Shown here piece by piece: positions 9,418-23,682 of a stretch of DNA of 64,000 bases. A program made the translations under genes and the position numbers. This stretch comes from Bdellovibrio bacteriovorus HD100 (GTDB lineage Bacteria; Bdellovibrionota; Bdellovibrionia; Bdellovibrionales; Bdellovibrionaceae). The first letter of the stretch is position 1. Every line of letters begins with the position of its first letter. Where the stretch lies: assembly GCF_000196175.1 (NCBI RefSeq), contig NC_005363.1, positions 1,116,001 through 1,180,000 on the forward strand. Direction: 5' to 3'. The notes beneath the pieces were generated by a model. It saw only the letters and a list, made by a program, of their open reading frames with translations. It did not search any database and had not been told where the DNA came from.

Positions 9418-10431
9418 ATGAAAAAGCAGCTTTGGACAGTATTGTCTGTGATGTTGTTTGCTGGTTCAGCCTGGGCTCAGGCTATGGGATCGCTGGCAGT
9501 GAATGGTGTGGGGGGCGAAAATCAGGGCTTCCGCAAAGTGAAGGCCGTTCGGTGCGACACAACCAAGCGTGGCAGTTGCGATAACCCTGTGTTCTTTGAT
9601 TTGAATAAGCCGACTGCAGTTCCGGCTGGCATGTATATCGTCGGCTTTGAGAATTCGATCAATCCCGACCTGGTGGAGGTCCGTCAAGGATCGACGACGA
9701 CTTTGCAATTGGAGAGAATCGATATTCCTGTGAACATGAGAGATCAAAAAGTCCGTGTCTATCGTGATATGTCTAAGCTGGTTGAGCAGCAGAAGATCTA
9801 CATGACAATGTTCTATATGAAACGTCATTTCTTCTTCCTGGATAAAGATAACTTCGGTGATCTTTATCTTGCGGGTGCTTGGGAGCGTGACTTTGTTCAG
9901 CGTTTTACCTACGAAGCTTGCGATAATGTTCAAGACGGTGATGATGCTCCCGCATCAGTTAAGCGGGCTGTGAAGATTTGTGAGGCTTGGGGCGCAGCAA
10001 GATCCCCCAAGGATCTTAGAAGTCTGTTCAATTTCAACGTGGTTGAACAACAGAAGGATGGCTCATTCGATCAGATATGGGTGTCTGCACCTTCGGACTC
10101 ACTTGTTATGAGGCATCCTCCATATTTGGTTGCTGTACCTTTGAAGAACTCGACCTTCGTGTCCGTCTTCCCCGGCGCGTATCGCATTAACGTCGAAGGC
10201 AAAGATGCTAATGGGAAAACAATCAAAAACGTCTCAATTGAAGTCGGAAACTACTCCAAATCCGGCAGTACTTTGGGTTTTTCATTGAACGTGGATGGCC
10301 TTTTCACTAACCTAGGTGAAGGGGATTGCGCATCGGCACGTACATGGGAAACTGAATCCCGTGCGTATTGCACGAGTGATGATCAGGAAGGTTGCGACCG
10401 TTCTGCCGCATCAAGCTGCACTCCCATGTAA
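9418..10431 (+). CDS. Secreted protein of unknown function, partner of the YcbB-like enzyme
   Basis: The ATG at 9418 is chosen because AAGGAG lies 8 bp upstream and the resulting N-terminus (MKKQLWTVLSVMLFAGSAWA) is a good signal peptide. Earlier in-frame ATGs at 9385 and 9412 would spoil it. The mature part, about 318 residues, has beta-rich character (GMYIVGFENSI, VRQGSTTTLQLERI, PGAYRINVEG) and a Cys-rich C-terminus with five cysteines in the last 30 residues, suggesting disulfides. No named family is recognised. Tight spacing with the transpeptidase gene suggests co-expression at the envelope. Confidence 0.78.
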   Translation: MKKQLWTVLSVMLFAGSAWAQAMGSLAVNGVGGENQGFRKVKAVRCDTTKRGSCDNPVFFDLNKPTAVPAGMYIVGFENSINPDLVEVRQGSTTTLQLERIDIPVNMRDQKVRVYRDMSKLVEQQKIYMTMFYMKRHFFFLDKDNFGDLYLAGAWERDFVQRFTYEACDNVQDGDDAPASVKRAVKICEAWGAARSPKDLRSLFNFNVVEQQKDGSFDQIWVSAPSDSLVMRHPPYLVAVPLKNSTFVSVFPGAYRINVEGKDANGKTIKNVSIEVGNYSKSGSTLGFSLNVDGLFTNLGEGDCASARTWETESRAYCTSDDQEGCDRSAASSCTPM

Positions 10432-10443
10432 TGGGAAAAGGGA

Positions 10444-11034
10444 ATGCATAAAATTGTTGTAAGTTTATTGTTTGTTTTTGGGCCTCACTTTGCGGGGGCT
10501 CAAGGCATAAAACCAGTCTCTGTTTCGTATGAAAACCTCATGCGATGCTTCCCCGAGCTTCAAGATGAAAAGCTGTCATTCAAGGTCGACCTCAACCGAC
10601 TGAAGGACATCATGGACGAAAAGTTCGTGACCTCCCAATCGCAGCTGCGTCAAAGAAAGATCCACTATCTGAACGCTGACAAAGAGCTGATGAACCTGAT
10701 CCTGCGAACCAAGTTTGCCGGGGCCAAGAAGGTCGAAACTGAACTTATTTTGCAGCAAGTCGACGAAAAGGGTGTCATCACCGATATCAAGCTGACAAAC
10801 AATCAGCGTCTGAATCCAAACCAGGACACGATCAACAACTTCCTGCTCAATGGAGTGATTAAATCAGACGAATACTCCTATAATGACACGAAGCTTAATA
10901 ATGTGATCTCGACCTACCGCCGGAACTTTAAAGAGATCCAGGAGATTGACCTGAACGACCGGGAAGGCAAACGCTCCGTCCACTGTGAAAACCAGAAGGA
11001 TCTCGGCATTATATGCACCTGTTCTAAAAAATAA
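10444..11034 (+). CDS. Small secreted protein of unknown function
   Basis: This 196-residue protein has a signal peptide ending near AGAQ (residue about 20) and a mostly helical, charged mature part. Cysteines occur near the mature N-terminus (LMRCF) and in the C-terminal CTCSKK. The sequence LRQRKIHYLNADKELMNLI and the surrounding segments resemble no family I can name. It is the last gene of the run beginning at 7671, 12 bp after the previous stop. An AAGGGA sits immediately against the ATG, which is closer than usual. Confidence 0.72.
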   Translation: MHKIVVSLLFVFGPHFAGAQGIKPVSVSYENLMRCFPELQDEKLSFKVDLNRLKDIMDEKFVTSQSQLRQRKIHYLNADKELMNLILRTKFAGAKKVETELILQQVDEKGVITDIKLTNNQRLNPNQDTINNFLLNGVIKSDEYSYNDTKLNNVISTYRRNFKEIQEIDLNDREGKRSVHCENQKDLGIICTCSKK

Positions 11035-11039
11035 ATCTG

Positions 11040-11067
11040 TTGAATATCGACCTTTTAGATATATACT
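11040..11067 (+). promoter_or_regulatory. Putative sigma70-type promoter upstream of zapA
   Basis: TTGAAT (11040-11045) and TATACT (11062-11067) are separated by 16 bp, directly after the stop of the preceding gene and about 110 bp before zapA. The resulting leader of about 100 nt contains no recognised riboswitch. Confidence 0.45.
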
Positions 11068-11179
11068 TTTCCTTGTGTTGATCTAGGATTTTTCTAGAGT
11101 TTTAAAAGGTTTAGGCATTCGAGGTCGAAAAGTTCGAAAGACTTCCAGACCCATAGATTCTGCAGCTGTTGAGGTGCTA

Positions 11180-11488
11180 GTGACATCTGAGAAAAAAACC
11201 TACAATTTCCTAATTGCGGGTGTCCCTTACAAATTAAAAACCTCTCATGACGACGCGACTGTTGAAGAGCTCGTTGAATTTGTAAATTCCAGAATGAATC
11301 AAGCCCTTGGTGTCACCAAGAATGGCTCCTATCAGAATGCAGCCGTGCTGACGGCGATGAATCTTGCTGAAGAACTTATTCTATTGAAACGCAAAGCCCA
11401 CCGCGAGTTGGAAAAACTTGAAGAGAAGGCCTTGCAACTTTCAATGGATCTGGAAAATTCCAAGAGCAACAAGGTTTTGAACAACTGA
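11180..11488 (+). CDS. zapA: ZapA-family cell-division protein
   Basis: The product is about 102 residues and matches the ZapA layout. A small N-terminal beta/alpha domain (TYNFLIAGVPYKLKT, then VEELVEFVNSRMNQ) is followed by a helix with AVLTAMNLAEELI. A C-terminal coiled coil follows (LKRKAHRELEKLEEKALQL). ZapA promotes FtsZ protofilament bundling at the septum. The start is a GTG. The one at 11180 has GAGG five bases upstream and is preferred over 11174. It is followed within 30 bp by a 5-formyltetrahydrofolate cyclo-ligase gene, an arrangement common to many proteobacteria. In a filament-forming predator the division role would be at multi-site septation, which is inference. Confidence 0.85.
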   Translation: MTSEKKTYNFLIAGVPYKLKTSHDDATVEELVEFVNSRMNQALGVTKNGSYQNAAVLTAMNLAEELILLKRKAHRELEKLEEKALQLSMDLENSKSNKVLNN

Positions 11489-11514
11489 CTTTGTTTTGAT
11501 TTCTTGGAGTGTCC

Positions 11515-12078
11515 ATGCCAGTTTCCTGGAGCTCTAAAAAGGACTGCCGGTCCTTCTTTAAATCTCTTTGTGCCCAAGAGTTTGCACAAGGTCTAGTTCA
11601 ACAACAACAGCAGCTCGACGCCCATCTGCGTGATTTTATGAAATCACAGACGGGGGTTTGGGGAGCCTACCGGGCCTTGCCCGAAGAGGCTCAGGTCGAA
11701 GAGGTGTTTCACATCCTTCACCTGAAATGGGCCTTCCCCAAAATGCGCGAGGGTCTTTTGGAATTCTATGAGACCCGGGATTTCGATCTCGGGCCCTACG
11801 GAGTGCGGGAACCAAAACCCGGCTCTTTCCAAAGATCCCTGGCCGAAATGTCCGGTCTGCTGGTTCCCGGTTTGGTTTTTAATAAGAATGGCAATCGCCT
11901 CGGTAAAGGAAAAGGGTTTTACGATAAAACCTTGAAATCCTTCCCGGGGGTGAAAGTCGGAATAGGCTTTGATTTTCAAGTCACTGCCGATCCGCTTCCC
12001 ACCGAGCCTCATGATGTGAAAATGGATTTCCTCATCACAGAATCAGGACTGGTCGATTGCAAGAAGCATCAGGAGTAA
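11515..12078 (+). CDS. 5-formyltetrahydrofolate cyclo-ligase family protein
   Basis: The 187-residue product has the family's C-terminal signature LVPGLVFNKNGNRLGKGKGF followed by YDKTL, and the downstream VKVGIGFDFQV and PTEPHDVKMDFLITE. In this family they contribute to ATP and substrate binding. The enzyme converts 5-formyl-THF to 5,10-methenyl-THF using ATP in the cytosol. The ATG at 11515 is preferred over the GTG at 11509 because GGAG lies 5 bp upstream. Position directly after zapA is the classical neighbourhood. The N-terminal half is more divergent than in E. coli YgfA. Confidence 0.88.
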   Translation: MPVSWSSKKDCRSFFKSLCAQEFAQGLVQQQQQLDAHLRDFMKSQTGVWGAYRALPEEAQVEEVFHILHLKWAFPKMREGLLEFYETRDFDLGPYGVREPKPGSFQRSLAEMSGLLVPGLVFNKNGNRLGKGKGFYDKTLKSFPGVKVGIGFDFQVTADPLPTEPHDVKMDFLITESGLVDCKKHQE

Positions 12079-12085
12079 ATGAATC

Positions 12086-13651
12086 ATGGAGATCGTAATC
12101 AGCGCCATTATCGGCCTGCTCATCGGTGGAACAGTCGTCTTCGTTATTAAACGTCTGCAGGACAACAACAAAAAGAAATCTGCACGTTTCGAAGCAGAAC
12201 GCATCGTCAACAAAGCCAACTCGGAAGCGGCTAAAATCAAAAAAGAGTCCGAAAACAAAGCCAAGGATTTCGAATCCCGCGCCCGCAAGAATGTCGAGCA
12301 GGACATTCACAAACAAAAATCCACTTTGAAAAACAAAGAGTCCCAGCTGGAGCGCCGTTTGAAAGAGGTCGAAGACCAGTTCAAACAAAAGATGGAAGAA
12401 AACGAGCGCTATCTGAACTCTTTGAAAGACCGCGAGGAAAAAATCGCGATCTCTGAAAACCGCATCAAAGATCTTGAGAAAAAAGGCGAGGCTCACATTG
12501 GGGAGCTGAAGCAAAAGCTTGAGTCCGTAGCCGCCATGAGCCAGGACGAAGCGCGCCGCCAGTTGCTGACAGCTTTGGAAGACGAAGCGAAACAGGAAGC
12601 AGCGAAGAAAATCGCCCAGATCGAAGAAGAAGCAAACAAAGAATCCGAGAAAAAAGCCAAGCGCATTCTGGCAACAGCTTTGTCCCGCTTTGCTTCCGAG
12701 TACACGTCTGAAAGAACTGTCAGCGTTCTGGCTCTGCCAAACGACGAGATGAAGGGTAAAATCATCGGCCGTGAAGGTCGTAACATCCGCACGTTGGAAG
12801 CCCACTGCGGTGTGGATCTGATCGTTGATGACACGCCAGAAGCAGTTGTGATTTCCGGTTTCGATCCGGTTCGCCGTGAACTGGCTCGTCGTACCATCGA
12901 AAAGCTGATGGAAGACGGTCGTGTTCACCCGGCACGTATCGAAGAAGTTGCCGAAAAGCAGCGCAACGAACTGATGAAATCCATGAAAGAGGAAGGCGAG
13001 CGCCACGTGATGGAGCTGGGCATTCCGAACATGCACCCTGAACTGGTGAAAATCATCGGTGGTTTGAAATACCGTTCTTACCAGGGGCAAAATGCCTTGA
13101 ATCAGTCTTTGGAAGTGGCGACGATTGCCGGTCTTCTGGCGGCTGAACTGGGTGTCAGCGTGAAGCTGGCTCGCCGTGCAGGTCTTTTGCACAATATCGG
13201 TAAAGCGATCGATCACACCGTGGAAGGCAGCTATGCTTTCGTGGGTGCTGAAGCCGCTAAGAAATACAATGAATCCGAAGATGTTTGTCATGCGATCCGC
13301 GCCCACGATGAAGAGGAAAAACCTCACTCCATCCTGGCTTGGATTGTTCATGCAGCTTACACTCTTTCCAGCTCTCGTCCGGGCGCACGTCGTCCACAGA
13401 TGGATACCTTCATCCATCGTTTGGAAGACCTGGAAAGCATCGGCAACAGCTTCGACGGCGTTTTGAAAACATTGGCCCTGCAAGCCGGTAAAGACATCCG
13501 CGTGTTGGTTGAATCCAGCCGTGTGACCGATGATCAGGCCGTGATGTTGTCCCGTGATATCGCTCGTAAGATCGAACGCGAGATGCCTCAGGCCGGTCAG
13601 GTGAAAGTCACTGTGGTTCGTGAAACCCGTTCTGTGGAGCATGCAAGATGA
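12086..13651 (+). CDS. rny: RNase Y homologue with degenerate HD site
   Basis: The 521-residue protein has full RNase Y architecture: an N-terminal membrane helix (about 1-22), a long charged coiled coil (about 25-190), a KH domain (about 205-265, [16 protein letters not shown]) and an HD-type domain with the family tail [14 protein letters not shown]. It would normally be the membrane-anchored endoribonuclease that initiates mRNA decay. The metal site is abnormal. The HD pair reads [10 protein letters not shown] (H369-N370), the EGSH histidine is Tyr383, the HH pair is H407-D408, and the AAD aspartate is Tyr425. Structure and length are otherwise intact, so it looks like a retained scaffold with lost or altered catalysis. 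Its stop overlaps the tyrS start. Confidence 0.93.
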
Positions 13652-14865
13652 TGAGTCCTCAGGAGCAGCTGGAAAGAATCAAATTCGGCACGGCCGACTT
13701 CATCAATGACGAGGACATGCTTAAAAAACTTAAGCGCTCGATCGAGACGAAGAAACCTTTGAATATCAAACTGGGTGCAGATCCAACACGTCCGGACATC
13801 CATCTGGGCCACACCGTTGTGATCAACAAACTGAAAACCTTCCAGGATCTGGGGCACAAGGTGTCCTTCCTGATCGGCGATTTCACAGCGATGATCGGGG
13901 ACCCCTCCGGTAAAAACAGCACGCGTCCGATGCTGACTCGCGAAGAGATCGAGGAAAACGGCCGCTCTTACGCAAAACAAATCTTCAAGATTCTGGATCC
14001 GGAAAAAACCGAGATCGTGTATAACTCCAGCTGGATCATGAAAATGACACCGGCGGAATTCATCACCATGACTTCCAAGTACACCGTGGCTCAGTTGCTA
14101 GAGCGCGAGGACTTCACCAAACGTTACAGATCCGGCACTCCAATCGGTATTCACGAATTCATCTATCCTTTGACTCAAGGTTACGATTCCGTGGCTTTGA
14201 AAACGGATGTCGAGCTGGGTGGGACGGATCAGAAGTTCAATCTTCTGGTCGGTCGTGCGATGCAGGCCGCTTACGGAATGGAAGCACAGTGTGTGCTGAC
14301 CATGCCGATTCTGGAAGGTATCGACGGCGTGAACAAGATGTCCAAGTCTTTGGACAACTATATTTCTGTAGTGGATACTCCAAAAGACATGTTCGGAAAA
14401 ACTATGAGAATTTCCGACGAGCTGATGTACCGCTGGTACGAGCTTTTGACTGACGTCGGTGCTGCTGGTTTGAATCAGCTGCGTGCGGATGTGGCCGAAG
14501 GCCGCAAGCACCCGCGCACAGTGAAAGTGGAGCTGGCAAAATTCCTTATTAAACGTTTCCATTCCCAGGCTGAAGCGCAAGCGGCGGAAGACGAGTTCAA
14601 CCGCATCTTCGTGGAAAAAGGTCTGCCGGATGAAGTGCCTGACTTTGAAGTCGAAGCCGAGACCCAAATGGGGCTGGCGGCATTGATGGTGAAAGCCCAG
14701 CTGGCGGCTTCCAACAGTGAAGCCGGTCGCCTGATCCAGGGTGGAGGTGTTCAGATTGACGGCGAGAAGGTTTCCGACCCTCGTTTGAAAATCGACCTGA
14801 AGTCCGGAGCAAGCTTCGTGCTGAAAGCCGGTAAAAAGAAATTCGTTAAGATTGTTGTTAAGTAG
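13648..14865 (+). CDS. tyrS: Tyrosyl-tRNA synthetase
   Basis: The 405-residue class I synthetase has the HIGH-equivalent HLGH at residues 52-55 and KMSKS at 230-234. It ends in an S4-type RNA-binding domain ([19 protein letters not shown]). The KMSKS form and overall pattern place it in the TyrZ-like branch rather than the KFGKS branch. It charges tRNA-Tyr in the cytosol. ATG codons at 13648 and 13651 overlap the rny stop, so translation is coupled to rny. Confidence 0.96.
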
Positions 14866-14890
14866 TCAGAACTGATCGGGGATCCGAGTT

Positions 14891-15697
14891 ATGAAAATCA
14901 AATTTCTTCCGCAGAATATCGAAGTCGAAGGAACTCCTGACAAGAGCCTTTTGCAGATTGCAACGGAGAACAAACTGGAAATCCGATCCATCTGCAAAGG
15001 TGTTCCATCCTGTGCGGAATGCCGGGTGCGTATCGCCGAGGGCGAGTCCAACACTCTGCCCCCGACGAAAGCCGAGTTGAGCCTGATCGGAACGAGTCAC
15101 TTTATTGATGGCCGCCGTTTGAGCTGCCAGGTTCGTTGTTATGGCGATGTCACCGTGGATCTGACTGAACAGGTTCAAAAGAGTGAAAACAAAGTCAAAA
15201 AAATCAGGGGCTTCCGCGCCAACAAACAGGTTGAATCCAAGGCCGTCAACGACACGATGCTTTTGACTGAAAAGCCGGAAGACCGTCCACAGCATCAGCA
15301 GGCAGACCGCAGTGCTGACTCAGCTGAAATTTCTTCTGAGATGGCCGCTGAAGGTGAGGCGACAGAGCAATCTCAAAGTCAGCCAAAGCAACAGCAGCAG
15401 CAACAACAAAAGCAGCGTCAGCAGCAACAGAACCGCCCGCAGCAGCAAAAGCAGCAGGGTGGTGGCGGTGGCAATCGCAACCAGCAGCAGAATCAAAAGC
15501 AAGGTCAGCAGAAACAAGGCGGCCAGCAACAGAAGCAGGGCCAGCAAAAACAGGGGCAGCCGAAGCAGCAGCAAAATCAAAAGCCGCAGCAACAGCAGAA
15601 CCAGAATCGCAATCAGAATCAAAATCGCAATCAGCAGCAGGGCCAGAAGCCCCCGCAGAATCAGCAGCCAAAGCCGGACCGTAAGGACGATCAATAA
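14891..15697 (+). CDS. [2Fe-2S] ferredoxin with Gln/Asn-rich C-terminal tail
   Basis: Residues 1-100 form a plant-type ferredoxin domain. Cluster ligands are ICKGVPSCAECRV (C-x5-C-x2-C) and a distal Cys in RLSCQVRC. The rest, from about residue 145 to 268, is almost wholly Gln, Asn, Lys, Arg, Gly and Pro, with tracts such as QQQQQQQ, and no hydrophobic core. The tail is basic and should be disordered. It could drive phase separation, nucleic-acid contact or a prion-like assembly. None of that is shown by sequence alone. The ATG is 25 bp after tyrS, so it belongs to the zapA-rny-tyrS transcription unit. Confidence 0.88.
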   Translation: MKIKFLPQNIEVEGTPDKSLLQIATENKLEIRSICKGVPSCAECRVRIAEGESNTLPPTKAELSLIGTSHFIDGRRLSCQVRCYGDVTVDLTEQVQKSENKVKKIRGFRANKQVESKAVNDTMLLTEKPEDRPQHQQADRSADSAEISSEMAAEGEATEQSQSQPKQQQQQQQKQRQQQQNRPQQQKQQGGGGGNRNQQQNQKQGQQKQGGQQQKQGQQKQGQPKQQQNQKPQQQQNQNRNQNQNRNQQQGQKPPQNQQPKPDRKDDQ

Positions 15698-15760
15698 TCC
15701 ACGCGGTCTGGACCTGTGGGCAGTGTCCTGTAAACAGATCTTTACCGATAAGTTTCAAGG

Positions 15761-16570
15761 ATGTCACACAAGATCACTTTCCGGGAACGGGGACAAGGGC
15801 CACTGCTAATACTTCTTCATGGTTATGGAGGAAGTGTTCACCATTGGGAATCCATCGCGGAAACCCTGTCGGCTCATTACCGTGTGATCGTTCCTAATCT
15901 AAGCCACATCTACATGAGCAGCGATAAGCTGTTCTTTACTGTGCAAATCGAAGCCGTCGCCAAGTTTATCCGTGAAAACTTCCCGGGTGAAAAGGTCAGT
16001 CTTGCAGGTTTAAGTTACGGTGGCGCTTTGTCCTGGGGCCTGGCCACGCAGCATCCGGATCTGGTTGAAAAAACTGTTTTGATCAATCCGATGGTGACCG
16101 ATCCTATTCGCCACTTCCTGCCTAAAGAATTGAAATTCTTTTTCGCCATTCCGCTCAACTTAAAAAGTGTCTATGTGATGCTTTCAACTCCGATGGGGCG
16201 GGCGTTCCTGAAGCGTTCGGCGCAGATCTTCCGCGATGAGCGCAGTGAAGGGGTGGTTTCGGTGGAAACACTCAAAGGCCGCAAGCTGCAGTTTGTGGCG
16301 CACATGATTCATCATTTTGCCTGGATCCTGCGTTCCGAGGACTGGGCTTACTGGCACACGCGTTTGTACGCTTACCGCGGTGAATGCCGGTTGATCTTTG
16401 ATGAAAAGGATCTGCTTTTTGATCAGACGGCCTATCGTCATTTTGCCAACCATATCGGCTGTGAGGATGTTGTGATTTTGACGGGTGCGGGGCACCTGGC
16501 AATTAAAACGCAACCCGAAGAAATCTCCCGTCTCATACGTGAGTTTTTAAGCGAATCCGTCGCAGCTTAA
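15761..16570 (+). CDS. Alpha/beta-hydrolase fold protein
   Basis: The 269-residue protein has the oxyanion loop motif LLHGYGGSVHHWES near residue 20, a nucleophile elbow GLSYGG near residue 86, an acid in LIFDEKDLLFD, and a terminal His in GAGHLAI. This is the usual order of an esterase, lipase or haloperoxidase-like enzyme. There is no signal peptide, so it is probably cytosolic. The substrate is unknown. It follows the ferredoxin by 63 bp and precedes a strong terminator, so it probably closes the operon. Confidence 0.88.
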   Translation: MSHKITFRERGQGPLLILLHGYGGSVHHWESIAETLSAHYRVIVPNLSHIYMSSDKLFFTVQIEAVAKFIRENFPGEKVSLAGLSYGGALSWGLATQHPDLVEKTVLINPMVTDPIRHFLPKELKFFFAIPLNLKSVYVMLSTPMGRAFLKRSAQIFRDERSEGVVSVETLKGRKLQFVAHMIHHFAWILRSEDWAYWHTRLYAYRGECRLIFDEKDLLFDQTAYRHFANHIGCEDVVILTGAGHLAIKTQPEEISRLIREFLSESVAA

Positions 16571-16602
16571 GATCAGATTCTATTTTGACCGAAAAAGAAA
16601 AA

Positions 16603-16627
16603 GGGAGTCGTGAAGACTCCCTTTTTT
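16603..16627. terminator. Bidirectional rho-independent terminator
   Basis: GGGAGTC (16603-16609) and GACTCCC (16615-16621) pair around GTGAA, with a T-run on the right and an A-rich run on the left. It therefore serves the hydrolase gene on the plus strand and the IscA-type gene on the minus strand. Confidence 0.88.
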
Positions 16628-16649
16628 GTTTTTGCATGTAAGGATAAAA

Positions 16650-16976
16650 CTAAACGTTGAAGCTGGAACCGCAGCCGCAGTGTTTGTTGGCGTTCGGGTT
16701 GTTGAACACAAACCCTTTACCATTCAAGCCGCCGGAGTATTCCAGGGTCATACCCAGCAGATAGAGCATGCTTTGAGAGTCCACGGCCACTTTTTGGCCC
16801 TGGGATTCAAAGAACTTGTCTCCGTCACGAGTCACGGTATCGAAATCCATTTTGTAAGACAGGCCTGAACAGCCGCCTTTTTTCACCTCAACGCGCAGAA
16901 AAGCCGCGTCGTCTTTTCCTTCATCTTTTTTTAGGGAAGCCAGTTTAGTTGCTGCTTCAGGTGAAATAGTGATCAT
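16650..16976 (-). CDS. A-type Fe-S carrier (IscA/ErpA family)
   Basis: The 108-residue product begins MITISPEAATKL. It carries the three conserved cysteines of A-type carriers: C36 in KKGGCSGLSY and C100/C102 in KHCGCGSSF. These proteins deliver Fe-S clusters or iron to apo-proteins. AGGAG lies 6 bp upstream of the ATG at 16976. A longer in-frame extension upstream is rejected because it crosses the leader and has no Shine-Dalgarno. It lies downstream of the cysteine desulfurase gene on the same strand, about 105 bp away, which fits a small Fe-S assembly unit. Whether it is ErpA or IscA cannot be settled here. Confidence 0.92.
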   Translation of the reverse strand: MITISPEAATKLASLKKDEGKDDAAFLRVEVKKGGCSGLSYKMDFDTVTRDGDKFFESQGQKVAVDSQSMLYLLGMTLEYSGGLNGKGFVFNNPNANKHCGCGSSFNV

Positions 16977-17080
16977 AGAAAGCTCCTTTAACGTCGCAGC
17001 CAGTATAACACAGCTGTCAAGGGCTGGGGAGCCCCGGATAGACCCTCCGGGGAGATTGTTCAAATTATTGTATTTACTAG

Positions 17081-18274
17081 CTATTTTTGAATAGCCTGCT
17101 TCAGGATCTGAGCCGCACGGCTTAATTCGTCCTGAGTCGTCCAGCGGCCCAGGCTCAGGCGCAGGGAGCATTGGACTTCCTCGGTGCTCAGTCCCAGGCC
17201 TTTAAGAACGTGGCTGACCACCATCGCACCGGTGCCGCAGGCTGAGCCCGTGCTCACACCCAGTTTCTGCAATCGAGGCAGGATCTGTTCGGTTTTGATT
17301 CCCGGCAAGGTGATGTTCAAGTTCGCCGGGGACCTGTCCGTCGGGTGACCGTTCAGTTTTACACCCGGGATGTTTTGCTGAAGTTCAGACCACAGGAAAT
17401 CACGCAGGTCTTTCATGTGCTGCACTTCTGCGGTGAAGTTTTGCTGGCAAAGCTCGCAAGCCGTTCCGAAGCCAACCACCGCTGGCACATTGACGGTGCC
17501 AGAGCGAAGACCACGTTCTTGACCGCCACCATAAATCAATGGATTCAGTTGAACCTTCGGATCTTTTCCGCGGATGTAAAGAGCGCCCACACCTTTGGGG
17601 CCATAGATTTTGTGACCCGAGAAAGACATCAGATCAATGCCCATTTCAGTCACATTCACCGGGATTTTGCCGACAGCCTGAGTGGCGTCTGTGTGCAGAT
17701 AGATTTGTTTTTCTTTGCAAAGAGCGGCGATTTCCGGAATCGGGTTGATGGATCCGATTTCGTTGTTCACCCAGATAAAGCTCATCAGTTTCGTGTGTGG
17801 TTTGATTGCCGCTTTCACCGCTTCAAGTTCAACCACACCGAATTTATTCACCGGCAGGAAGTCCACTTCCACACCCATTTTCTGAGCGGCGGCCATGCCC
17901 TTCATGATCGAGCTGTGCTCGATGTTGCTGGTGATAAAATGAATCGGGGCTTCCGGATTTTCTTCACGCAGTTTCGAAATCAGCCCGAAGATCACCCAGT
18001 TGTTGGATTCGGTGGCGCCACCAGTGAAAGTGACCTCCATGCTCTTGCAGCCGATGAAGCTGGCGACTTGGGTGCGGGCCTTGGCAACTGCATTTTCCGC
18101 GATCCAGCCCCAGTGATGACCGGCGCTGGCTGGGTTGCCGAAGAATTCTTTGAAGTAGGGCTCCATCGTGGAATAAACACGCGGGTCCACCGGTGTGGTT
18201 GCGTTGTAATCAAGATAGATGCCGGTGTCCTGCTGCAAAGTCTTTCCCATCGGGCGTTCGGTGCTCGTTTCCAT
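17081..18274 (-). CDS. Cysteine desulfurase (NifS/IscS family)
   Basis: The 397-residue PLP enzyme has YLDYNATTPVDPRV near the N-terminus, the HTDATQAVGKIPV segment, the PLP-lysine motif SFSGHKIYGPKGVG, and an active-site Cys loop STGSACGTGA. It removes sulfur from cysteine for Fe-S assembly. The active-site loop is of the short type. An internal ATG (MGKTLQQD, eight codons in) is an alternative start. It is followed by an A-type carrier gene but not by an iscU-like scaffold, so other ISC parts must be elsewhere. Confidence 0.94.
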   Translation of the reverse strand: METSTERPMGKTLQQDTGIYLDYNATTPVDPRVYSTMEPYFKEFFGNPASAGHHWGWIAENAVAKARTQVASFIGCKSMEVTFTGGATESNNWVIFGLISKLREENPEAPIHFITSNIEHSSIMKGMAAAQKMGVEVDFLPVNKFGVVELEAVKAAIKPHTKLMSFIWVNNEIGSINPIPEIAALCKEKQIYLHTDATQAVGKIPVNVTEMGIDLMSFSGHKIYGPKGVGALYIRGKDPKVQLNPLIYGGGQERGLRSGTVNVPAVVGFGTACELCQQNFTAEVQHMKDLRDFLWSELQQNIPGVKLNGHPTDRSPANLNITLPGIKTEQILPRLQKLGVSTGSACGTGAMVVSHVLKGLGLSTEEVQCSLRLSLGRWTTQDELSRAAQILKQAIQK

Positions 18275-18315
18275 AATGCCTATGAGCTAAACCTTGCCCG
18301 GGCGCCGGGTCAACG

Positions 18316-18333
18316 AAAAACGCCGGGAGGCGT
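18316..18333 (-). terminator. Terminator for the receiver-like gene
   Basis: On the minus strand ACGCC-TCCC-GGCGT is followed by TTTTTCG. It begins a few bases after the stop codon at 18336. Confidence 0.65.
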
Positions 18334-18335
18334 CT

Positions 18336-19904
18336 TTAGGCAACGACTTTGTCTTTCTGTTTTGCCTCAAAATCATGGATTTTTTCGTTCAGGAAGTTCT
18401 GGGCGCGGTATTTGTCCAGATCCTGGATATCGGCCTTCAAGATATGCAGGTTGGAAATACCCTGGTTTTGCAGACGTTGCTTTTGAACATCGAAAAACTT
18501 TGATCCACGGGGCGTATATAGGACGTACTTGTTATTTTTTGGAAGATAAATATAAACGTTGAATTCCACGGCCACATCGCCCGCCAGTTCGTTCAGGTGA
18601 ATGCTGGCCATTTCTTCGTCCGCGGAATCTCCGAAGGTGGTTTTGATGTCCTGGCGCGGGAAGAAGGCCATGGCAACCTCGTTGCCTTCGTGCACAGATT
18701 TGCGCAGGAACTCGGCCTGTTCCAGTGCCCACTCTTCAAATGGCACTTCCTTGATGTTCAGCTGCATTGATTCGCTGTCCTCAATTTTCTCACCATTTTC
18801 CTTCAGAAAGCGGAACAGGCGTTCACGGACTTTTCGCAGAAAAGCATCGTCCAGCTTGCGGTCTTTGCCCATGGCGGTGATCAAATAGCCGGAAAAGCGG
18901 GTGGACTCAATCACGATGCAGGAAATGTTGGTGGAGTTTTCGATGGCCTCGGATTCTGCAAAGCTGGTTTTAATGCAGGATTTTTCCAGTGCGTCTTTGG
19001 TTCCGCGCAGGATGATGGAGTCTTTTTTCGCCGACAGGGGATTGTCTTCAATCTGCTCTGGTGTCGGACGTTCCTTGCGGCGGGTTGTGGTGGGCATCGG
19101 CGCCCAGCCTGCTGCCGCTTTGTTGGCTGCGTTCTGCCGCATCAGCATCGCATTGAGCGTTTCGTCACTTTCATCGATACCGGAACCCATGCTGTTCCCG
19201 GCACCGTGCCCTTGTTGGGCCCAGCCCGGCCCCAGGCCGTTGTTTTGGCCGGACGGTTGCATCAGCCCCAGATTCAGTTCTGAGTTGGTTCCAGGCATAT
19301 ATCCGATATTGGATTTGTTTTGCTGGCCGCCGGCAGAGATTGAAGAGTCGGTGGTGTGGCCGCCAGAAAACTGATTGCTGCCGTCATCCCCCCCAAGCAG
19401 CTGCTGTAATATGCTTTGTGCATTCTGGGAAGACAGGGTGCCACCCTCACCTTTGATGGCAATGACACTGCCGTCTTCGGCGGTGCTGGAGCCAGTGCGC
19501 TGAAACGGATTGGTGACACCTTTGGCCTGCTGGTCTTTATAGAACTTGTTGACGGTTCTTTCCACGGCGGGGCCTGTGATCGGAGGATACAGGACGTACT
19601 CGCTGTTGCTGGTGTTGAGCATGTTGAAACTGGCTGCGGAATTTTCTTCAGCGAAAACAATCACGCACACCGGAAAAGCCTGTGCCAGAATCTTGGGCAG
19701 GTTTCGTACTTTGCGGTTGGGGTGATCGATGCTGACCATCACAAACTGCGGCTGCTCCTGAACCAAAAAGATCAGGGCCTCTTTCAAATTGGTCGTGGAC
19801 TTGATGGTCCAGTCGCGGTTCTTTAGAAAGCCCTCGACGGTTCCCAGGCTTGTCGGCTTGGATTTGATGATGAGGAGCTTTTTCTTGATCGAGTCTTGAC
19901 TCAT
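18336..19904 (-). CDS. Receiver-like domain protein with long linker, unknown output
   Basis: Starting at MSQDSIKKK, about 522 residues are encoded. Residues 8-125 look like a CheY-type receiver fold: KKLLIIKSK, then PQFVMVSIDHPN with an Asp at the phosphorylation position, then PVCVIVFAEEN. The acidic pair near the first strand is absent, so phosphorylation is doubtful. A Gly/Asn/Gln/Ser-rich linker of about 150 residues follows. Then comes a C-terminal domain of about 230 residues with alternating strands and helices that I cannot name. An upstream ATG at 19931 is possible, but AGGAC sits closer to 19904. The gene stands alone, divergent from nrdJ. Confidence 0.72.
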   Translation of the reverse strand: MSQDSIKKKLLIIKSKPTSLGTVEGFLKNRDWTIKSTTNLKEALIFLVQEQPQFVMVSIDHPNRKVRNLPKILAQAFPVCVIVFAEENSAASFNMLNTSNSEYVLYPPITGPAVERTVNKFYKDQQAKGVTNPFQRTGSSTAEDGSVIAIKGEGGTLSSQNAQSILQQLLGGDDGSNQFSGGHTTDSSISAGGQQNKSNIGYMPGTNSELNLGLMQPSGQNNGLGPGWAQQGHGAGNSMGSGIDESDETLNAMLMRQNAANKAAAGWAPMPTTTRRKERPTPEQIEDNPLSAKKDSIILRGTKDALEKSCIKTSFAESEAIENSTNISCIVIESTRFSGYLITAMGKDRKLDDAFLRKVRERLFRFLKENGEKIEDSESMQLNIKEVPFEEWALEQAEFLRKSVHEGNEVAMAFFPRQDIKTTFGDSADEEMASIHLNELAGDVAVEFNVYIYLPKNNKYVLYTPRGSKFFDVQKQRLQNQGISNLHILKADIQDLDKYRAQNFLNEKIHDFEAKQKDKVVA

Positions 19905-22485: not shown

Positions 22486-23682
22486 ATGTCTAAAAAAGAT
22501 ATTTTTGGTGATGATATTAACGAGACAAAAGACTTCGCAAGTTTCGAAGAACTTTTTGCTCAATCTGAAAAAGGGATGAAGACCAAACTTTCCGTGGGCG
22601 ATCAGGTTCATGGCGAGATCCTTTCCATCGGTAAAGAAGAGGCCTTTGTGGCCACGGGCACTCCGACAGACGGCATGATCCTGACCAAGGATCTTTTGGA
22701 TGAAAACAAAGAAGTAAAATACAAAGTCGGCGATTACATCGACTGCGTTGTGACTTCCATCAAAGGTGGCGAAGTTCGTCTGGCGAAAAAAGGCTCGATG
22801 AATGCTTCCACAGATTCTTTGGAAGACGCTTTCGACATGGAACTTCCGGTGGAAGGCCGTGTGACTGAAACCTGCAATGGCGGTTTCCGCGTGAGCATCC
22901 AGGGTAAAACGGCGTTCTGCCCAATCAGCCAGATCGACAGCCGCTTTGTTCAGGATGCCAATGAATACGTTGGTAAAAAATTCGACTTCATGATCACTCA
23001 GCTGGATCCAAAAGGGCGCAACATCGTTGTCTCCCGCCGCAAGGTTCTGGATCTGCAAAAAGCTGAAAACGAAGGTACGTTCATGCTGAAACATCAGCCG
23101 GGCGCTTTGCTGGAAGGCAAGATCGTTCGTCTGGAAAAATTCGGTGCGTTCGTGGAGCTGGAAGCAGGCATCGAAGGTCTGATCCACGTTTCTGAACTTT
23201 CCTGGTCCCGCGTTCATGACCCTAAAGAAGTGGTGATGGCCGGTCAGCCAGTGACAGTGAAACTGATCAAAATGGAAGAAGTCGACGGACGTCTGAAAAT
23301 TTCTTTGTCCCTGAAACAGGCTGACGGCGCTGGCAATCCTTGGATGACAGTTCCGCAGAAATTCCCAGTGGGCACCGTGGTGCAGGGGAAAGTGGAAAAG
23401 AAAGAAACATACGGTCTGTTCGTAAACATCGCTCCGGGTGTGACGGGTCTTTTGCCTCGCTCTAAATGGCGTGATTCCGTGGATGCCGCTCAATACGAAA
23501 ACAAAAAGCGCGGGGACGATGTGACTGTTCAGGTGGATCAGATCATGTTTGAAGAAAAGAAGATTTCTTTGGCTTTGCCTGGTGAAGCTGAAGATCACAG
23601 CTGGAAATCCCACTCCACAACCTCTTCCGGGTTGGGGGCGATGGCAGAGGCTTTGAAGGGCCTTAACATCAAGAAGAACTAG
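22486..23682 (+). CDS. S1 RNA-binding protein with four S1 domains
   Basis: The ATG at 22486 has AAGGA 7 bp upstream and gives 398 residues. Four S1 OB-folds can be counted: about 35-105 (GDQVHGEILSIGKEEAFV), 115-190 (VEGRVTETCNGGFRVSI), 205-285 (LLEGKIVRLEKFGAFVELEA, then GLIHVSELSW) and 300-375 (GTVVQGKVEKKETYGLFVNI). It is shorter than ribosomal protein S1 (usually six domains), so it is an S1-like RNA-binding or translation-associated protein. Its codon use looks strongly biased, suggesting good expression. A strong terminator follows. Confidence 0.9.
   Translation: MSKKDIFGDDINETKDFASFEELFAQSEKGMKTKLSVGDQVHGEILSIGKEEAFVATGTPTDGMILTKDLLDENKEVKYKVGDYIDCVVTSIKGGEVRLAKKGSMNASTDSLEDAFDMELPVEGRVTETCNGGFRVSIQGKTAFCPISQIDSRFVQDANEYVGKKFDFMITQLDPKGRNIVVSRRKVLDLQKAENEGTFMLKHQPGALLEGKIVRLEKFGAFVELEAGIEGLIHVSELSWSRVHDPKEVVMAGQPVTVKLIKMEEVDGRLKISLSLKQADGAGNPWMTVPQKFPVGTVVQGKVEKKETYGLFVNIAPGVTGLLPRSKWRDSVDAAQYENKKRGDDVTVQVDQIMFEEKKISLALPGEAEDHSWKSHSTTSSGLGAMAEALKGLNIKKN

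Follow-up and report, generated by a model that had tools for sequence, protein, structure and literature searches.

A [2Fe-2S] ferredoxin encoded behind RNase Y in Bdellovibrio bacteriovorus as a candidate accessory of RNA decay

The gene at 14891..15697 (+ strand, ATG start) encodes a ferredoxin (fdx) of 268 aa with a C-terminal tail. It lies in the window analysed here, a stretch of 64,000 nucleotides (1116001-1180000) of the single-contig 3.78 Mb genome of Bdellovibrio bacteriovorus HD100. From gene order we infer a [2Fe-2S] protein dedicated to the RNA-decay machinery of the order, acting as its accessory and most probably as a partner of RNase Y; we give this reading a probability of roughly 45%. 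Its place in the rny operon and its often long unstructured tail suggest that it tunes RNA decay by redox or Fe-S state. The partner could instead be PNPase, as the pnp gene adjoins a relative of this ferredoxin in a sister lineage. A search of the open PMC literature found no paper on this gene.

Ferredoxin domain, peptide and fifth cysteine

As the preliminary description had recognized, the gene encodes what appears to be a normal [2Fe-2S] ferredoxin; profile, cysteines and predicted fold all fit. The Pfam profile Fer2 (PF00111) matched residues 7-82 with 30.8 bits (cut-off 21). The ligands C35, C41, C44 and C79, arranged as CX5CX2C...C, were invariant in an alignment of 42 of the 59 loci (A1), from which 17 near copies had been left out. 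AlphaFold2 placed the domain, residues 1-103 (14891..15199, +), confidently in a beta-grasp ferredoxin fold, with no regular structure past residue 103, and a Foldseek comparison of the model with the PDB returned several kinds of [2Fe-2S] ferredoxins. The best solved relatives by sequence were Isc-like and adrenodoxin-like ferredoxins. The N-terminal ferredoxin domains of AcsV (47.2 bits, cut-off 800) and NqrF (39.5 bits, cut-off 295) were among the best NCBIfam matches, yet both lay far under the cut-offs and are parts of larger enzymes.

The domain is present throughout the order. The ferredoxin profile matched in all 73 order-level genomes of the phylum sample (E up to 7.1e-41), and the ferredoxin was likewise matched in 59/59 genomes of the relatives sample. 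Among the best 80 of 113 relatives in a scan of genome contigs, the nearest named ones were Bdellovibrio, and the domain of B. bacteriovorus strain kdesi was 88% identical. The viral contigs searched held no relative of the ferredoxin.

Two features outside the ligand set are also conserved. A fifth cysteine, C83 (codon 15137-15139, +), lies four residues past the last ligand and was found in 77 of the 81 rny-linked ferredoxins, in 2/21 of the pnp-linked ones described below and in none of nine Isc-like ferredoxins. Furthermore, a basic linker between the Fer2 domain and an acidic linker (residues 129-159, net -7; 15275..15367, +) carries the peptide ESKAVNDTMLL (residues 115-125; 15233..15265, +). 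Peptides of this type occurred in 69/81 order-level orthologues against a mean of 5.8 for the same stretches shuffled, with a pattern written post hoc from the inspected sequences, and several of the 12 non-matching orthologues had degenerate forms. The idea that the peptide is part of the ferredoxin fold was unsupported, as its pLDDT is about 50 and it is unplaced in the model. Of the 81 rows at hand (80 loci and the window), two further alignments, A2 and A3, used 78 and 34, with L143, L174 and L185 left out of A2.

The gene neighbourhood

The window gene order is mthfs-rny-tyrS-fdx, all on the + strand. The upstream member of this conserved block, mthfs (5-formyltetrahydrofolate cyclo-ligase; 11509..12078), is followed by rny (RNase Y; 12086..13651; TIGR03319, 610.7 bits, cut-off 454.35), which overlaps by 4 bases with tyrS (tyrosine--tRNA ligase; 13648..14865); tyrS ends 25 bases ahead of fdx. 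A same-strand rny was found upstream of fdx in 76/81 loci, and the other five end before reaching the rny position: three of them were settled by other records of the same contigs (L116 for L010, L121 for L024, and coordinates for L023), and the last two run into contig ends. At the head of the block stands the cyclo-ligase gene in all 44 loci with 3.7 kb upstream. Among the named loci, taken from the best 80 of 113 relatives, rny was present in 77/80 (the other three end too early) and the cyclo-ligase gene in 69/70; this set overlaps with that of the 81 loci, many genomes being in both.

The preliminary description had named both rny and tyrS as operon partners; of the two, rny proved to be the constant one. 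Although tyrS lies between rny and fdx in 70/81 loci, fdx sits right behind rny, at most 115 bases away and with no tyrS between, in six. The constant neighbour of fdx is therefore rny, kept wherever the sequence reaches, and tyrS was rejected as the meaningful partner. The frequent tyrS, together with the true ferredoxin fold and tails resembling those of RNA proteins, would agree with a carrier that supplies electrons to RNA-modifying Fe-S enzymes (such as radical-SAM tRNA enzymes), whose basic tail leads it to RNA or ribosomes and for which rny and tyrS are fellow RNA genes. We regard this as quite improbable, however, since the linkage survives without tyrS at those six loci, and a comparison of loci, rather than a dedicated search, revealed no modification enzyme as a conserved neighbour.

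Downstream of fdx, an alpha/beta hydrolase gene follows after 63 bases (15761..16570, +), which as a neighbour is not conserved across the order. A two-way terminator-like hairpin (16597..16627, either strand; called by consensus match alone) separates it from a convergent pair on the - strand, an A-type Fe-S carrier (IscA/ErpA-like) ORF at 16650..17171 and an IscS/NifS-like cysteine desulfurase ORF at 17081..18274. Of the 52 named loci offering 5 kb or more downstream, 28 have iscA or iscS there on the other strand (39/80 in all), about 0.4 to 6 kb from fdx. This fits a general Fe-S role and makes a general Fe-S ferredoxin quite possible. Conserved gene order, on which the RNase Y reading draws, can also reflect inertia. 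A housekeeping ferredoxin would carry electrons in general or for Fe-S assembly, its gene belonging to an old housekeeping operon, and its tail would be tolerated low-complexity drift without a role. The Isc-like and adrenodoxin-like nearest solved structures and the frequent gain and loss of the tail speak for it.

We consider this explanation, the main rival, a genuine possibility, but several observations point away from it. The protein shares its fold and the CX5CX2C...C ligands with ISC-type ferredoxins (TIGR02007; E. coli Fdx, 1i7h; P. putida FdxB, 3ah7). However, it scored 29.8 bits against that model (cut-off 132.1), below two paralogue stretches of the same genome (43.6 and 48.5 bits). 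The acidic stretch ahead of the last ligand is weak, with a median of 1 acidic residue versus 6 in Isc-like ferredoxins, and the ligand spacing is 34 in 81/81 rny-linked and 21/21 pnp-linked ferredoxins versus 35 in 9/9 Isc-like ones. It is encoded in the rny rather than an isc operon, and carries a C-terminal motif and a tail; a classical Isc ferredoxin was thus rejected as a candidate. The iscA-iscS pair itself is on the other strand, behind the hairpin, and no iscA/iscS match was found near the 21 loci of the sister lineage. Finally, two RNA-decay operons (rny and pnp) carry a ferredoxin, and the tail composition is held in near relatives, both of which argue against a housekeeping carrier with a drifting tail.

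Some minor observations concern the same region. An Rfam scan of 10000-18500 gave nothing at gathering score, and a 6S RNA near the cyclo-ligase gene was not found. At 23086-23565 (+) of the window, two stretches in one 425-residue open frame match the C-terminal end of the PNPase model, and are presumably S1-like. The Bdellovibrionales rny-tyrS-fdx block was also met on two public MAG contigs (L132, L174) that bear the names Streptomyces griseus and Natrialbaceae archaeon and are probably mis-binned. One genome carries a second, diverged tyrS-fdx fragment on a 3199-base contig (L095; G042:C87), either a duplicate or contamination.

A relative behind pnp, and the distribution of RicT

The RNA connection proposed in the preliminary description turned out stronger than the sequence alone could show: to the rny linkage across the order comes a pnp linkage in a sister lineage. 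This lineage, family f17 of the same phylum, is probably the Bacteriovorax group; of its 61 genomes with a match of E 1e-15 or better, 23 were sampled. Its closest ferredoxin, 141-376 residues long with a charged extension (21 loci counted), sits behind pnp and dut of the rpsO-pnp-dut operon in 21/21 loci, with rpsO seen in 19, and two further loci have a tailless ferredoxin at the same pnp-dut place. The rny of f17 follows the cyclo-ligase gene, away from the ferredoxin, in the five genomes examined. A ferredoxin match at E up to 1e-15 was absent in 10 f17 genomes with RNase Y. In 20/21 loci (L060-L079, L094) an ORF of about 95-130 aa lies between dut and the ferredoxin gene; the one tested from this position matched Pfam PHA_gran_rgn with 29.3 bits (cut-off 26.6).

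When an f17 ferredoxin was used as query against two genomes of the order, the rny-linked ferredoxin was the best match, ahead of paralogues. In a ferredoxin tree of 30/81 rny-linked, 21 pnp-linked, 8/12 other and 11 paralogue rows, the rny-linked sequences formed a clade of their own (99/98), and a second clade (96/87) united the pnp-linked set and the two tailless sequences. The union of these clades, and with it orthology of the rny- and pnp-linked ferredoxins, was neither supported nor rejected (AU p 0.269).

For an Fe-S protein associated with RNase Y there is a known counterpart. RicT (YaaT, PSP1 family; RicAFT/Y-complex) requires its clusters for a stable complex with Rny in Bacillus subtilis, according to PMC10470536. 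The two proteins share a link to RNase Y, and the genomic link to rny expected of a RicT-like factor was found for the window ferredoxin. Their folds are unrelated, however: the cluster of RicAFT is a [4Fe-4S] type, as given in PMC6751060, whereas the window protein is a [2Fe-2S] ferredoxin whose tie to RNase Y is one of gene order. PSP1 (PF04468) had no match in the window ferredoxin, nor elsewhere in this genome.

PSP1/RicT is rare in the order, being found in 3/73 genomes of the phylum sample and 3/59 of the relatives sample, as opposed to 70/71 f17 genomes with RNase Y. The pattern CX4CCX30CX4CC was kept in the six PSP1 proteins read across the phylum, including the three of the order. Judged from these profile matches, the order is mostly without RicT, the known Fe-S partner of RNase Y, and has an Fe-S protein fixed behind rny. 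This contrast is one phylogenetic split, which alone proves nothing. Coexistence is possible, as three genomes of the order have both RicT and the rny-linked ferredoxin, and f17 keeps its pnp-linked ferredoxin together with RicT. RNase E/G was present in 58/59 relatives, and RNase Y is therefore not the sole decay endonuclease. In one congener RNase E/G appeared as two distant partial matches with a stop inside each (G006:C1:533360-534055 and 875973-876638), possibly rearranged or broken.

A bolder extension can be drawn for the Bdellovibrionota as a whole. Their ferredoxin would be a redox or Fe-S-status subunit of the RNA-decay machinery, its gene lying with that of RNase Y in one lineage and with that of PNPase in another. 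In the Bdellovibrio order it would have replaced RicT, which is mostly lost there, and would make mRNA decay respond to redox or iron conditions inside the prey. The tail would tune RNA contact or condensation while evolving freely. We think this full scenario rather unlikely as it stands.

For the ferredoxin as a partner of RNase Y, the computed anatomy (fold, cysteines, peptide and disordered tail) and the place behind rny let us infer how docking, signalling and tail might work together. The conserved peptide, in its general form SxAVxG/D, may dock the ferredoxin on its partner, most likely RNase Y (or PNPase). The [2Fe-2S] cluster, perhaps together with the neighbouring C83, would then report redox or Fe-S status, and the state of the cluster could alter nuclease activity or target choice, in a manner similar to that of RicT, which with its Fe-S clusters works together with the Bacillus enzyme. 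What Fe-S clusters contribute to RNase Y has yet to be settled even for Bacillus (PMC10470536, PMC6751060). An independent test could come from a further Fe-S protein with a different fold that is linked to rny where RicT is mostly missing.

The C-terminal tail

The final 109 residues (160-268; 15368..15694, +) form a Q/N/K-rich tail of net +15. They comprise 55 Q, 12 N, 12 K, 11 G, 8 P, 6 R, 3 D and 2 S, with no hydrophobic or aromatic residue, which bears out the earlier picture of a Q/N-dominated extension (67 Q/N) with scattered basic residues (18 K/R). Its expected disorder was likewise confirmed by prediction: the last 140 residues of the ferredoxin are predicted to be disordered, and the AlphaFold2 pLDDT is <50 across residues 128-243. 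The richest 80 residues hold 54 Q/N. CAR x5 occurs at 15 sites in this genome (5 in a reversed control); of the ORFs there that encode QQQQQ and are 60 aa or longer, the runner-up has 26 in 80. The tail is thus exceptional among the Q5-bearing ORFs examined in the genome.

The tail looks translated, with its composition held among near relatives: it mixes CAG and CAA codons, near relatives are separated by gaps of whole codons, and dN/dS is low. Compared with the nearest relative, 24 codons of the Q/N part differ synonymously and 10 non-synonymously (dN 0.039, dS 0.576). A close pair, L016/L017, gave dN 0.056 and dS 1.11, and L001 versus L003 dN 0.19 and dS 1.60, with more distant pairs saturated; alignment of repeats may flatter all these figures. 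The codon mix and the near-relative dN/dS also disfavour simple triplet slippage as a full account of the tail. Positive charge as its special mark was weakened, since the last 50 residues of tyrS products have a median net charge of +6.

Comparison of orthologues, the check suggested in the preliminary description, showed the tail to be variable. At least 30 residues follow position 135 in 52/81 order-level orthologues, and fewer in the other 29; the tail is therefore dispensable. In two genomes reduced to 1.2-1.3 Mb (L092, L093), the gene order and a form of the motif persist but the tail is gone. At least 30 Q/N in 80 residues occurred in 15/81 orthologues and were missing even in close congeners of the window strain: within the genus (n=24), 12 orthologues are rich in Q/N, two carry other basic tails, and in 10 fewer than 30 residues remain after position 135. 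On a tyrS tree of 74 of the 81 loci, the Q/N state required four changes (at least three forced by starred branches), and long versus short tail 14 changes (at least seven forced). Q/N richness therefore appears to be lineage-specific.

This bears on the idea, put forward in the preliminary description, of a prion-like or condensate-forming protein that assembles through Q/N and thereby recruits an electron carrier into RNA granules. The usual yardstick for prion-like stretches is 30 or more Q/N in 80 residues, which the tail clearly exceeds; it is predicted to be disordered, and rny is in the operon. However, the lineage-specific Q/N richness, with RG- or NR-rich tails, or none, in other lineages, is at odds with a prion-like nature as an essential property. 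Many K/R and P residues and a lack of aromatics, as seen here, are also unfavourable for amyloid. We hold this explanation to be very improbable, and prion behaviour is the least likely part of the mechanism. A very high Q/N content and disorder are shared with Q/N-rich prion-like domains such as that of Rho of Clostridium botulinum (PMC4703818), whereas the ferredoxin tail is rich in K/R and P, free of aromatics and unconserved among orthologues. In the text of a survey of bacterial prion-like proteins (PMC4606120), the terms Bdellovibrio and ferredoxin were absent.

The tail also resembles the basic, low-complexity and disordered-looking ends of bacterial DEAD-box helicases; four helicases encoded in this genome carry such ends (L212, L214, L215, L216). 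The scaffold region of RNase E is another basic low-complexity tail of bacterial RNA proteins. In contrast to the helicase ends, the ferredoxin tail is attached to an electron-transfer fold and Q/N-dominated in this strain, and its RNA contact is putative. For an accessory of RNA decay, the tail may be an optional polyelectrolyte that makes weak, multivalent RNA contacts or raises local concentration, and possibly tunes condensates. Its composition would be free, but usually net positive and poor in hydrophobic residues when long, the Q/N form being one lineage-specific solution.

Among the long tails, 44/52 are net positive, with a median hydrophobic fraction of 0.05. Orthologues with no tail or with Q/N, RG, NR or E/K-rich ends on one domain offer a natural experiment on bacterial disordered tails; the types are Q/N/K, RG-rich, NRNR-rich (NR/K-rich), E/K-rich or short. 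The eight remaining long tails include two with basic last 30 residues (L029, +6; L039, +11) and six with similar E/K-rich ends, which are probably helical instead of low-complexity (L035, L036, L038, L046, L050, L057).
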